From a virus, in IMG/VR virus record IMGVR_UViG_3300037508_000325, positions 1 to 21,097 of that record: a stretch of 21,097 nucleotides of DNA; one strand, 5' to 3'. Positions 6,321 to 16,126 of this stretch are shown here, piece by piece; position 1 is the first letter of the stretch, and the number at the start of each line of letters is the position of its first letter. The notes beneath the pieces were generated by a model. The model did no database searches, was not told the DNA's origin, and was given only the letters and a program-made list of their open reading frames with translations. A program made the position numbers and the translations under genes.

Positions 6321-6349
6321 AGTATACCCTAAGCAATTCTATTTGTCAA
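6321..6349 (-). promoter_or_regulatory. Consensus sigma-70-type promoter, leaderless, for FmdB-type gene
   Basis: Minus strand TTGACA (6349-6344), a 17-base spacer, and TATACT (6326-6321), followed by six bases and ATG at 6314. The -35 and spacer lie inside the end of the HNH gene. This is one of the two best leaderless promoters in the window. Confidence 0.85.
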
Positions 6350-6604
6350 TCTAGCATGTGTACGAACCCTATGACAGTTCGCACATACCACTTCACACTT
6401 TTTAATTTCTTTCATAATTGCCTTCCAAGAAAATCCATCATGAATCATTCTAGAAACATTGTATTTTTTATCTCTTATGTGATCAAAATCTAATACTATG
6501 TGATTTTTTTCTCCGCAGTCTACACATCCACTTGCCATCTTTATTTCAGCAAGTTTCTTTTTATACTGCTGTTTATTATATGTTGCTAGTTCTTTTTCAG
6601 TCAT
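6329..6604 (-). CDS. HNH endonuclease
   Basis: From ATG 6604 the protein has 91 residues with C27-x2-C30 (SGCVDCGEKN), LDFDHI (38-43, with the metal and general-base residues D41-H42), and CEVVCANCHRVRT (70-81). This is the zinc-stabilised HNH fold of small phage nucleases. They either work near terminase in packaging or act as mobile free-standing homing endonucleases; the gene is far from the terminase here, so mobility is the simpler guess. The longer frame from 6643 runs into the RNA element and is not needed. TATAAT ends ten bases before this ATG, leaving a leader of two or three bases. Confidence 0.88.
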   Translation of the reverse strand: MTEKELATYNKQQYKKKLAEIKMASGCVDCGEKNHIVLDFDHIRDKKYNVSRMIHDGFSWKAIMKEIKKCEVVCANCHRVRTHARLTNRIA

Positions 6605-6613
6605 AGCACTTAC

Positions 6614-6622
6614 ATTATAGCA
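6614..6622 (-). promoter_or_regulatory. Extended -10 promoter for HNH gene
   Basis: Minus strand TGCTATAAT; TATAAT at 6619-6614 is nine bases from the ATG at 6604. It lies just downstream of the structured RNA candidate. Confidence 0.55.
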
Positions 6623-6635
6623 AAGATTGTTTAAG

Positions 6636-6710
6636 CCCCGCATAGGAATTCAAGCACGAAGGCCGAATTTAAGGAAAAGGTAACTAATCCATCCCAAGGC
6701 CTATGCGGGG
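6636..6710 (-). ncRNA. Candidate structured small RNA with own promoter
   Basis: A perfect 11-bp stem (CCCCGCATAGG at 6710-6700 and CCTATGCGGGG at 6646-6636, minus strand) closes 53 bases. Inside, GGGATGG...CCTTTTCC can form one hairpin and AATTC...GAATT a second, stacked against the closing stem, so a three-way junction is possible. TATAAT at 6722-6717 would start transcription at or within a base or two of the first stem base. There is no ORF here, no tRNA T-arm and no U run after the stem. The stretch fills the gap between Hsp20 and HNH genes. I do not recognise the RNA class. Confidence 0.55.
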
Positions 6711-6716
6711 ACTTCT

Positions 6717-6722
6717 ATTATA
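6717..6722 (-). promoter_or_regulatory. -10 box of the candidate ncRNA
   Basis: Minus strand TATAAT, five bases after the Hsp20 stop codon. Six bases separate it from the first base of the 11-bp stem. No clear -35 box was seen. Confidence 0.5.
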
Positions 6723-6727
6723 CTAGA

Positions 6728-7159
6728 TTACTTTTTAGCAACCTTGATAGCAATTTCCTTTGGTTTCTTTTCCTCTGGAACAATGCGGTCAATGTCAATA
6801 TGAAGCATTCCATCTTTCATCTCTGCTCCAGTTACTTCCATATATTCTCCAAGAGCAAATGTGCGGGTAAACTTGCGTGTTGCAATACCCTTATGAATTG
6901 CTTCACCCTCAGCTTCAGTTGTAATTTCACCTTTAACAACAAGAGTTCCCTCTTCTACAGTTACTTTTACATCATCTTTTGTAAAGCCAGCAACGGCCAC
7001 TGAAAGTTTATAAGTGTCTTCGTCTACCTTAATTAAATCATAAGGTGGATAGGATTGACGCATTGCTGTATTGTGTACATGATTAAAACGGTTCAACTCT
7101 CTGTTGAAACCAATAAAAAAAGGATCCTTAAAAAGATCCAGTGTATACGAACTTACCAT
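6728..7159 (-). CDS. Hsp20 / alpha-crystallin small heat-shock protein
   Basis: The 143-residue protein contains an alpha-crystallin domain from about 37 to 130: YPPYDLIKVDEDTYKLSVAV, then GTLVVKGEI, GIATRKFTRTFALGEYM and MKDGMLHIDIDRIVPEE, with the C-terminal KKPKEIAIKV containing an IxI-type anchor. Small heat-shock proteins bind unfolding proteins without ATP and form large oligomers. They occur in many aquatic phages, perhaps to protect virion or enzyme folding. The start has a textbook AAGGAG site. The gene has its own promoter and a leader with a 5' hairpin, so it is controlled separately from its neighbours. Confidence 0.95.
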   Translation of the reverse strand: MVSSYTLDLFKDPFFIGFNRELNRFNHVHNTAMRQSYPPYDLIKVDEDTYKLSVAVAGFTKDDVKVTVEEGTLVVKGEITTEAEGEAIHKGIATRKFTRTFALGEYMEVTGAEMKDGMLHIDIDRIVPEEKKPKEIAIKVAKK

Positions 7160-7217: not shown

Positions 7218-7247
7218 ATTATATCATATCTCTAGCCAAATACGCAA
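7218..7247 (-). promoter_or_regulatory. Promoter of Hsp20 gene
   Basis: Minus strand TTGCGT (7247-7242), an 18-base spacer, and TGATATAAT with TATAAT at 7223-7218 (extended -10). It overlaps the last codons and stop of the endonuclease VII-like gene. Predicted start is near 7211. Confidence 0.65.
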
Positions 7248-7584
7248 TAGCCCTATTAAGTCTATCTATGCTATCTTGAAATACCCCAAGACCTCTATTA
7301 CAATTATGGCATAGATGTCCTCTAAAACTATCTGTAATATGATCATGATCTACTACCCAAACACTAGCATTTCCACCAGTACCTTTTAATTCCTCTTCAT
7401 TTTTTAAACAAATAGGACAGATATATCCTGATGGTGGATATCCGTATTGTTCTTTTAATTCTTCCCTTTTTTTTGCTAACTTTTTTGCACAATTTTTACA
7501 TTCAGGCCTAAGATATTTACCACCACTTGATGGAGAAAAGTCTGAATCAGATAGTTCTATTTTACATTTGCTACATATTTTCAT
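7219..7584 (-). CDS. Recombination endonuclease VII-like protein
   Basis: The 121-residue protein joins an N-terminal zinc knuckle (C4-x2-C7 and C29-x2-C32) to a domain typical of T4 endonuclease VII: YICPIC (C56, C59), [20 protein letters not shown] (about 77-96) and [20 protein letters not shown]4 endonuclease VII resolves branched DNA before packaging and belongs to the His-Me finger (HNH) group. Here D79-H80-D81-H82 and N96 fit the catalytic site. The ATG at 7584 has no ribosome site because tRNA-Gly ends two bases upstream. Translation may depend on tRNA processing. A RuvC-like resolvase is also encoded, so either this one or RuvC may be redundant or act on other substrates. Confidence 0.88.
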
Positions 7585-7586
7585 TG

Positions 7587-7657
7587 AGCGGATAGCGAGA
7601 ATTGAACTCGCACATTAACCTTGGCAAGGTTACGCACTACCACTATGCAATATCCGC
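7587..7657 (-). tRNA. tRNA-Gly (anticodon GCC)
   Basis: The 71-base cloverleaf has a 7-bp acceptor stem GCGGATA/TATCCGC, a D arm with GTGGTA, an anticodon arm TAACC-TTGCCAA-GGTTA, and a T arm GCGAG-TTCAATT-CTCGC, with discriminator T. The anticodon GCC reads GGC and GGU glycine codons. CCA is not encoded. No convincing promoter is seen upstream, so it is probably transcribed from the subtilase gene 19 bases before it. Confidence 0.95.
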
Positions 7658-14344: not shown

Positions 14345-16126
14345 TTAAATTAGTTTATATTCATTTAGAAACTCCTGAATATCTTCAGGAATCTCCTTGT
14401 TATCCAATTCTACCATAGCCTTCTGCTTATCCGCAAGTCGGCTGGCAGAACTCCAAGTATGAACCTCAATTTCTAGATTAGAATCCTTACTTGTATGGGA
14501 TATTGCTCCAAATACCGCCCCACAAACGGCATCTGCCAAGTCCTTAGATTTCTTGCGTGGATGATCAACTCTATTATTTTTCATAATTTTAAGTTCACTC
14601 ATCTCCTCAAGCAATAAAGGAATCATGGGCATTGCAATTCTCTCTTCATATATCATCATCGCTAGGTCTTCATAGTGTTTTTTAGCAACAGAAACAGTGT
14701 CTGTTTTTATGCCTACCGCTTTTAATTCCTGTTGAATATCAAAGGACTGCCAGCGGTCAAAGGTGACCATACCAATGTTAAAACCTTCTCTTCGTAAATT
14801 CTGTATCCACTTCTTAACCTCAGATAAGTCTACGGGACCCTCTACCTTTGGTTCCCACCAAGCAACGGCATCTACAATAACAATTGGCGCTACCTGTTCA
14901 TAATCTTTAATAACCTGAATATTGACCCATCGCTCAACATGTGCAATAGCAACAGCACATTTGTCATGCTTTTGTGCAAGGTCAGCATGAATATAATATA
15001 TTTTTTCTGGATCTGGCTTAAATCCAGCATCAAATCTTCTATGATTATCAACAGGATTTCTTAATGTCATACATCTTTCTAGTTTTTCTTTTTGCTTAAA
15101 GAATGAATCAGATGAATATGTGGGGGTACATAAAAATCTCATCATTGCATCACCTATATCAGTTAAAAATGCAATCTTAAAATCATCAATTTTTCTAGTA
15201 GGGTTTACCTCCCATGTAGGTCTTTTAAGTGCAAACATTCTAGGGTATTTATATGATTTAATATGGTCTTCTTCCCATACTATTTCAAATTCATTGTCTG
15301 GTCCTTCTGGTAGTTCTTCATTAATAACAAACTTATATCTACGTTCTACTACATCTTTTTCCATGATTACATCTTCATACCGTTTTGAAATGAAGTCGCC
15401 GTTGTAGCGAGGGAATGAAAGAAGAACTACTTTGCCAAGATCTGGAAAACGAGAATCTACTGTACCTCTAAATGCTTTATATATATTGTCAGCAGTTTTA
15501 CCTTGATCATTTCCTGTTCCTACTTCTGTAACAAAGCCAGAAATTTCATCAAGTACCGCCATAAATAAGTTAAGACCCTCATGTGATTCACGCTCAGAAT
15601 GACCTGAGTAAACGGTGATAGATTTATCAAAACCAATAGAGTTTACCTTTGGATCATACTTTCCAGCAAACCATGGAGACTTTTCAATCTTAGTTTTAAA
15701 ACCTTTAAAGAAAACATTTTTAGCCTGCTCAGCGTTAATAGCAACGTTGATAATATCTATAGCATCACCACTTGGTTTTCCATAATATCTTGCAGGATCT
15801 TTAAGACAGAGTAGTTTATAAACAACATAGGCACATGCAACAGTAGAGACAAAGTCTTTTCCACTGCCCTTGCCTAGTTGTAAGATAATTTCATTTTTGG
15901 TATATTTAGAAAAATGCCTATTTCCTTCTTCAGGACCCATCAAGATATGCAAATCTTCTTTACGATAGATCTGACTCATTGCCTCAACAATGTCATACTG
16001 GATAGGAGACAATGGTGGTTGATTTAAAAAGTCTGGAGACTCAACAAATGTTTTTACGTCTACAGGATTTTCATCAAATTGATTATCTTGAAGGGCTTCA
16101 AAGAAATCATTGAACTTGGTGGACAA
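14345..16126 (-). CDS. terL: Terminase large subunit
   Basis: The 593-residue protein has an N-terminal packaging ATPase with Walker A LGKGSGKD (84-91) and Walker B LFMAVLDE (187-194), and a C-terminal RNase H-like nuclease with acidic residues D382 (YYIHADLAQ), D457 (VTFDRWQS) and D532 (SKDLADAV). It cuts concatemers and drives DNA into the prohead. The start is read as TTG at 16126, in a 20-base overlap with the small subunit, with GGGGAAG upstream; no ATG or GTG fits nearby. The portal gene that normally follows is not here; two exported surface genes follow instead. Confidence 0.96.
   Translation of the reverse strand: MSTKFNDFFEALQDNQFDENPVDVKTFVESPDFLNQPPLSPIQYDIVEAMSQIYRKEDLHILMGPEEGNRHFSKYTKNEIILQLGKGSGKDFVSTVACAYVVYKLLCLKDPARYYGKPSGDAIDIINVAINAEQAKNVFFKGFKTKIEKSPWFAGKYDPKVNSIGFDKSITVYSGHSERESHEGLNLFMAVLDEISGFVTEVGTGNDQGKTADNIYKAFRGTVDSRFPDLGKVVLLSFPRYNGDFISKRYEDVIMEKDVVERRYKFVINEELPEGPDNEFEIVWEEDHIKSYKYPRMFALKRPTWEVNPTRKIDDFKIAFLTDIGDAMMRFLCTPTYSSDSFFKQKEKLERCMTLRNPVDNHRRFDAGFKPDPEKIYYIHADLAQKHDKCAVAIAHVERWVNIQVIKDYEQVAPIVIVDAVAWWEPKVEGPVDLSEVKKWIQNLRREGFNIGMVTFDRWQSFDIQQELKAVGIKTDTVSVAKKHYEDLAMMIYEERIAMPMIPLLLEEMSELKIMKNNRVDHPRKKSKDLADAVCGAVFGAISHTSKDSNLEIEVHTWSSASRLADKQKAMVELDNKEIPEDIQEFLNEYKLI

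Follow-up and report, generated by a model that had tools for sequence, protein, structure and literature searches.

GOLLD and ROOL RNAs are several hundred nucleotides long and adopt ornate folds. They form oligomers (PMC12286853). The manA and wcaG motifs are RNA elements of aquatic phages that lie in the 5′ UTRs of the genes they regulate, and manA adjoins chaperone genes of the Hsp20 type (ibpA) (Weinberg 2010, PMC2864571). The small RNAs of phages of uncultured bacteria are poorly catalogued. Here we describe a phage locus at which comparison of relatives supports a predicted element as a gene for a folded non-coding RNA.

Results

The window analysed here is the complete IMG/VR record IMGVR_UViG_3300037508_000325 (21,097 bases), with its main genes on the minus strand. 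An initial annotation placed a structured small RNA candidate between an Hsp20 and an HNH gene. The upstream neighbour (6728–7159, minus strand) matches Pfam HSP20 with E = 1.6e-20, and the downstream one (6329–6604, minus strand) is an open reading frame for a 91-aa HNH endonuclease-like protein, whose identity to annotated HNH endonucleases from Streptomyces phages reaches 56%. Along the minus strand, the end of Hsp20 at 6728 is followed by a TATAAT box at 6722–6717, the arm CCCCGCAUAGG at 6710–6700, 53 nt, the arm CCUAUGCGGGG at 6646–6636, a second TATAAT at 6619–6614 and the HNH start codon at 6604. A Pfam scan of the 91-aa protein gave no HNH match; over 6329–6643 (minus strand) it gave Cytochrom_C552 barely above the cut-off, probably a false match due to Cys/His motifs. 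The reading frame can be extended back to an ATG at 6643 within the stem of the RNA, and the relatives begin at MTEKEL, the ATG at 6604. The second TATAAT, located 9 nt 5′ of this ATG and with a similar box here in most relatives, is probably a separate, leaderless HNH promoter. At a Zn-ribbon gene, TTGACA-17-TATACT (6349–6315, minus strand) stands six nt 5′ of the ATG, a probable leaderless promoter like that at HNH; from these two examples, leaderless promoters seem to be used by the phage group. On the same strand, tRNA-Gly(gcc) (7586–7657) is directly followed by an endonuclease VII-type gene (7219–7584).

The RNA element occupies 6633–6714 of the minus strand including an optional outer extension (core 6636–6710), as delimited by the alignment of relatives and by a covariance-model match at 6630–6716 of 89.3 bits, the window belonging to the training set of the model. 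The perfect 11-bp inverted repeat, the 53-nt interior and the two further hairpins are present as initially described, and the repeat is unique in the 21-kb window among pairs at most 120 nt apart. Its arms (6700–6710 and 6636–6646) form helix P1, which opens into a three-way junction. Three outer base pairs, AAG (6714–6712) with CUU (6635–6633), can be added past a bulged U6711, and are also possible in relatives. Hairpin P2 (6674–6694) has a 9-nt loop (6688–6680) ending in UAGUUAC, and this loop sequence, UAGUUAC(C), is invariant. Hairpin P3 (6653–6664), obtained by folding, pairs GGC with GCU around a 6-nt loop and is followed by a conserved GUGC; in the window it is lengthened by AAUUC/GAAUU (6669–6665 with 6651–6647). 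The minimum free energy of the minus-strand fold is −27.6 kcal/mol (z = −2.15). Such a fold of one sequence alone is modest evidence, and the case depends on the relatives.

The gap was also said to lack an open reading frame, a tRNA signature and a U run. No tRNA or real open reading frame was found to overlap it; ARAGORN finds only the tRNA-Gly, elsewhere in the window, and no repeated unit was seen within the element. The length of the interior ranges from 47 to 75 nt in relatives with steps that are not multiples of three, which excludes a coding explanation. As to the U run, the statement holds for the window but not for several relatives, in which U-rich tails follow P1 on its 3′ side (GGGGGCUUUUU in relative L211, GGGGGAUUUUU in L177 and L186).

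Queries with Hsp20 and HNH retrieved 80 loci each, many with the element between both genes, and further loci were fetched by a short DNA pattern regardless of neighbours; in total, at least 125 distinct elements from IMG/VR were tabulated. A search of viral contigs for the exact stem found no match, since the arms vary. The covariance model R1, built from 46 element versions and yielding rough E-values, scored the members among the pattern-fetched loci at 60–108 bits, save one weak member at 36.6 bits. The P1 arms change among CCCCGCAUAGG/CCUAUGCGGGG, CCCCACACAGG/CCUGUGUGGGG, CCCUACACGAG/CUCGUGUAGGG and GCCUCACGUAGG/CCUACGUGAGGC, while CUURG, GRUGG, UAGUUACC and GUGC are nearly constant. Covariation in relatives had been named beforehand as the test of the RNA, and compensatory changes were indeed found: in 109 distinct sequences P1 shows 98–100% standard pairing, with two-sided changes in seven of ten counted pairs. 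P2 has two-sided changes in two of five pairs, one of them a compensatory change from A-U to G-C (97:7); P3 varies and covaries little, and its support comes mainly from conservation. In alignment A1, 98.6% of the cells are paired, compared with 33–58% once the partners are slid, and 9 of the 17 counted pairs have changed on both sides; in none of 500 shuffles was the count of two-sided cells, the paired percentage or the covariation score as high as observed. We further applied a custom-built tree-aware null (not R-scape), in which substitutions were reshuffled along a FastTree tree in 60 simulations. Against this null, P1 pairs took the top four scores among all column pairs, and two of them exceeded every simulated value (E < 1/60). 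In the 109 sequences P1 holds 28 G·U cells and no A·C cell, which assigns the RNA to the minus strand and favours it over a DNA palindrome. A pseudoknot of the junction CUURG with GCYUG was also considered: the respective columns are correlated, but their combinations are not those of standard pairing (E about 17). The alignments thus display the conserved fold with compensatory changes that characterizes a stand-alone structured small RNA gene.

The TATAAT at 6722–6717 (minus strand) matches the −10 consensus, and standard −10 spacing predicts a start at about 6710, the first base of the stem, in agreement with the initial annotation. A TATAAT-like hexamer (at most one mismatch) lies 2–16 nt 5′ of P1 in 101 of 109 relatives, versus 15.5% of random positions; among the 24 elements without Hsp20 upstream, 14 possess an extended −10 (TGnTATAAT). 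No good −35 box was found for the RNA gene, and the site is absent from a consensus promoter scan of the window. As judged by consensus match, a putative promoter of its own thus stands at a fixed place, as in a stand-alone sRNA gene. The earlier proposal of a compact structured phage RNA with its own −10 box is supported by the P1 covariation together with a −10 box kept far above chance; the roles it suggested, in regulation, as a decoy or as an RNA-binding partner, are candidates.

Among the 125 tabulated elements, 101 have Hsp20 as the upstream neighbour and 104 have HNH as the downstream one. The upstream/downstream neighbours are Hsp20/HNH in 91, other/HNH in 11 and Hsp20/DUF5824-type ‘MPY’ gene in 5, with Dps-like neighbours in 8, besides others. 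Downstream gene types differ among phages (HNH, DUF5824-type MPY gene, Dps, glycosyltransferase), and some relatives carry the element without Hsp20 and without HNH. Orientation differs as well: L177, L255, L186, L269, L274 and L546 have an opposite-strand gene upstream, and L211 and L200 have a convergent gene downstream. These varied, opposite-strand and convergent neighbours therefore argue for a stand-alone RNA gene, and against an HNH leader or a plain Hsp20 3′ UTR. The RNA lies upstream of HNH in almost every one of its 80 closest relatives; in most other Hsp20 relatives, RNA and HNH are jointly missing at the Hsp20 locus.

At the Hsp20 locus of several relatives without the RNA (L022:4430-4520, L016, L019, L027, L034, L035), another element comes right after TATAAT: GACCUGAGCAUGUC-CAUAAA-CUGCUCA, followed by AAAGGAG. 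It is a probable H-type pseudoknot, for which Rfam at E ≤ 5 gives a chance match only, and a longer version with a GGGCAG..CUGCCC hairpin occurs in L072, L014 and L037. This pseudoknot may be another RNA element that is as yet undescribed. Upstream of the RNA in L131, L149–L152, L127, L214 and L258 lies a conserved 5′ hairpin, GUCGGGGGAGACAGCGAC, with UAAAUAMCUGG after it; this hairpin also precedes the pseudoknot element in L039 and L050, as if 5′ modules were mixed and matched between the two RNA elements.

The RNA is present in 27 of 47 records and in single copy in all 27 carriers, extra matches per genome being the reverse strand of the same site. About 20 records of the same phage group, some of which end before the locus, are without it, and the RNA is thus considered accessory. 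Rfam 15 (4227 families), applied to the window and divergent relatives, gave only tRNA and tmRNA above the gathering threshold, both elsewhere than the element; at a relaxed E ≤ 5–10 it gave only chance matches far below threshold. BLASTN of the element against INPHARED phages returned chance matches only, and the Streptomyces phages Tribute and Yaboi gave no credible R1 match. At E ≤ 0.001, R1 had no match in 251 bacterial genomes, all from the order to which an actinobacterial MAG with a 1.4-Mb genome belongs, a weak negative given the lack of a positive control. A pattern scan of bacterial genomes gave 119 matches, mostly by chance, and R1 scored none of the pattern-fetched bacterial contigs credibly (best 22 bits; the last 39 loci, L356–L394, lay outside the scoring). 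Among the papers covered, a literature search found no described RNA of such kind. The family belongs to no Rfam family, is apparently undescribed and, as far as these sequence searches reach, appears so far to be phage-only. The terminase (14345–16126, minus strand) is about 53% identical to those of Stanwilliamsviridae (Streptomyces phages), so the host is likely actinobacterial. Stanwilliamsviridae Streptomyces phages are rich in tRNAs and have a Ro-like gene as well as a tmRNA; a tmRNA is present in L162, too.

A partner gene was sought by presence and absence. Among the partial genomes compared, no protein gene of the RNA carrier G001 occurs in all four genomes with the RNA while being absent from the four without it, and nothing among the G001 and G002 proteins is strictly linked to the RNA. 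HNH and SNase genes are found in all four RNA-bearing genomes, but a homologue also occurs in one RNA-less genome. No conserved antisense site was found in the four RNA-bearing phage genomes, which are likewise partial. A long antisense role is disfavoured.

Discussion

We consider it slightly more likely than not that the locus is a stand-alone phage gene, with its own promoter, for a structured RNA of about 75–90 nt that acts in trans via a bound factor. Minus-strand transcription from a dedicated −10 promoter, often of the extended type, would yield this small RNA, both ends of which would be held, and presumably stabilized, in the P1 helix. P1 may also contribute to transcription termination, assisted in some relatives by a short U-rich tail. 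The helix is predicted to open into the three-way junction bearing two small hairpins, on which the UAGUUAC loop of P2 and the CUURG strand of the junction look like a contact surface, because they hardly vary whereas the helices have drifted through compensatory changes. A drifting scaffold with such constant loop and junction bases suggests a fixed partner. On this reading, the RNA would bind a factor found in every infection, as a scaffold, decoy or modulator. Candidates are, on the host side, a protein or RNP such as RNA polymerase, an RNase or a ribosome factor and, on the phage side, a core protein. A partner of either kind is the most economical assumption, because no Ro, no linked gene and no conserved phage antisense site was found in the genomes compared; a host RNA may also be the target. 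Only tentatively do we extend this to a previously undescribed, phage-specific RNA class that would associate with one universal machine of the host (RNA polymerase, ribosome or RNA decay factor) as an RNP and reprogram this machine in the course of infection via the invariant UAGUUAC loop on the three-way junction. With Hsp20 upstream in 101 of 125 elements, a linkage to Hsp20 transcription is possible.

A constant loop within a variable helix also resembles a seed, and the short size and own promoter would suit a base-pairing sRNA, whose invariant P2 loop UAGUUACC would pair with phage or host RNA and alter its translation or stability. We regard this as doubtful, given that the four RNA-bearing phage genomes contain, outside the gene itself, only scattered 11–12-mers in unrelated places, that GGUAACUA is only somewhat rarer in RNA-less genomes, and that the invariance covers stem and junction bases (CUURG, GG/CC, GUGC) beyond the requirement of a seed. 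The position directly behind a promoter and usually 5′ of a same-strand gene, at a site where related phages have other RNA-like elements before a Shine-Dalgarno sequence, would fit a cis-acting leader of the downstream (HNH) transcript, such as a riboswitch, attenuator or put-like antiterminator. Leaders of this kind always lie 5′ of a same-strand gene of related function, however, whereas here the downstream gene ranges from HNH and DUF5824-type MPY to Dps and glycosyltransferase and, in L211 and L200, runs in the opposite direction; moreover, a separate TATAAT usually precedes the HNH ATG by about 10 nt, and no Shine-Dalgarno sequence is sequestered, making a leader unlikely. Still less probable is a 3′ element of the Hsp20 operon, that is, a terminator or stabilizing 3′ UTR hairpin perhaps processed to an sRNA. 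Hsp20 does end immediately upstream in most elements and P1 is joined to U-rich tails in some members, but the RNA also stands behind other and opposite-strand genes, is absent from many Hsp20 relatives, carries −10 boxes at its 5′ end and keeps an invariant interior that a terminator does not need.

The regular order of RNA and HNH (104 of 125), with the RNA upstream of nearly all of the 80 closest HNH relatives, raises the question of whether the RNA serves the adjacent nuclease as a HEARO/omega-RNA-like guide or partner, or is its type III antitoxin. This is highly improbable, as the 91-aa HNH is far below the size of IscB/IsrB and has its own promoter, a HEARO match in Rfam and tandem repeats are both absent, and several lineages have the RNA without HNH. 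We give the least credence to an element acting as DNA, be it a MITE or terminal inverted repeat, a protein-binding palindrome or an HNH target site. The perfect 11-bp inverted repeat and the joint gain and loss of RNA and HNH at the Hsp20 locus would agree with it. MITE and REP elements come in several copies with conserved terminal repeats; the present element is single-copy in 27 of 27 carriers, its arms vary around an invariant interior, the opposite of a MITE, it exists without HNH, and G-U cells without A-C cells favour RNA.

For a stand-alone, trans-acting RNA gene, an invariant loop in a drifting scaffold means that the conserved partner could be fished out, and the binding of this phage RNA is directly testable. 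More than 100 variants from environmental phages that are relatives of a Streptomyces-phage family provide comparative support, and with its covariance model ready, the family can serve as an annotation marker for a gap currently left blank in such genomes.

Unlike manA and wcaG, the element is located 3′ of Hsp20 behind a −10 box of its own, and the Rfam model does not match it. It is small like YrlA Y RNA, with an end-to-end stem and a possible bulge, and related Streptomyces phages have a Ro gene; but it is not tRNA-like and has no Rfam match, and a Ro gene (TROVE, PF05731) was found in none of 16 RNA-bearing records (61–117 kb), with Streptomyces phage Tribute as the positive control, and the Y RNA/Ro reading was rejected. 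The architecture of the element, in which the terminal helix leads into a three-way junction bearing two hairpins, recalls phi29 pRNA, yet neither sequence nor Rfam match supports this; by inspection, the P2 loop UAGUUAC and the P3 loop (CUUCGU, CAUCGU) are not complementary, so no ring is predicted. Promoter, structured RNA and nuclease gene follow one another as in HEARO/IsrB-IscB omega RNA and type III (ToxIN) systems. The former, however, combine a large RuvC+HNH protein with a long Rfam-matching RNA, and the latter place tandem repeats before a toxin RNase, whereas here a tiny free-standing HNH accompanies an RNA without repeats or Rfam match, which also occurs without the nuclease in several lineages. 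While only about 80 nt long and matching no Rfam model, the phage element resembles GOLLD and ROOL, which are likewise structured non-coding RNAs in or near phages, were described mostly from metagenomes and once had no known function.
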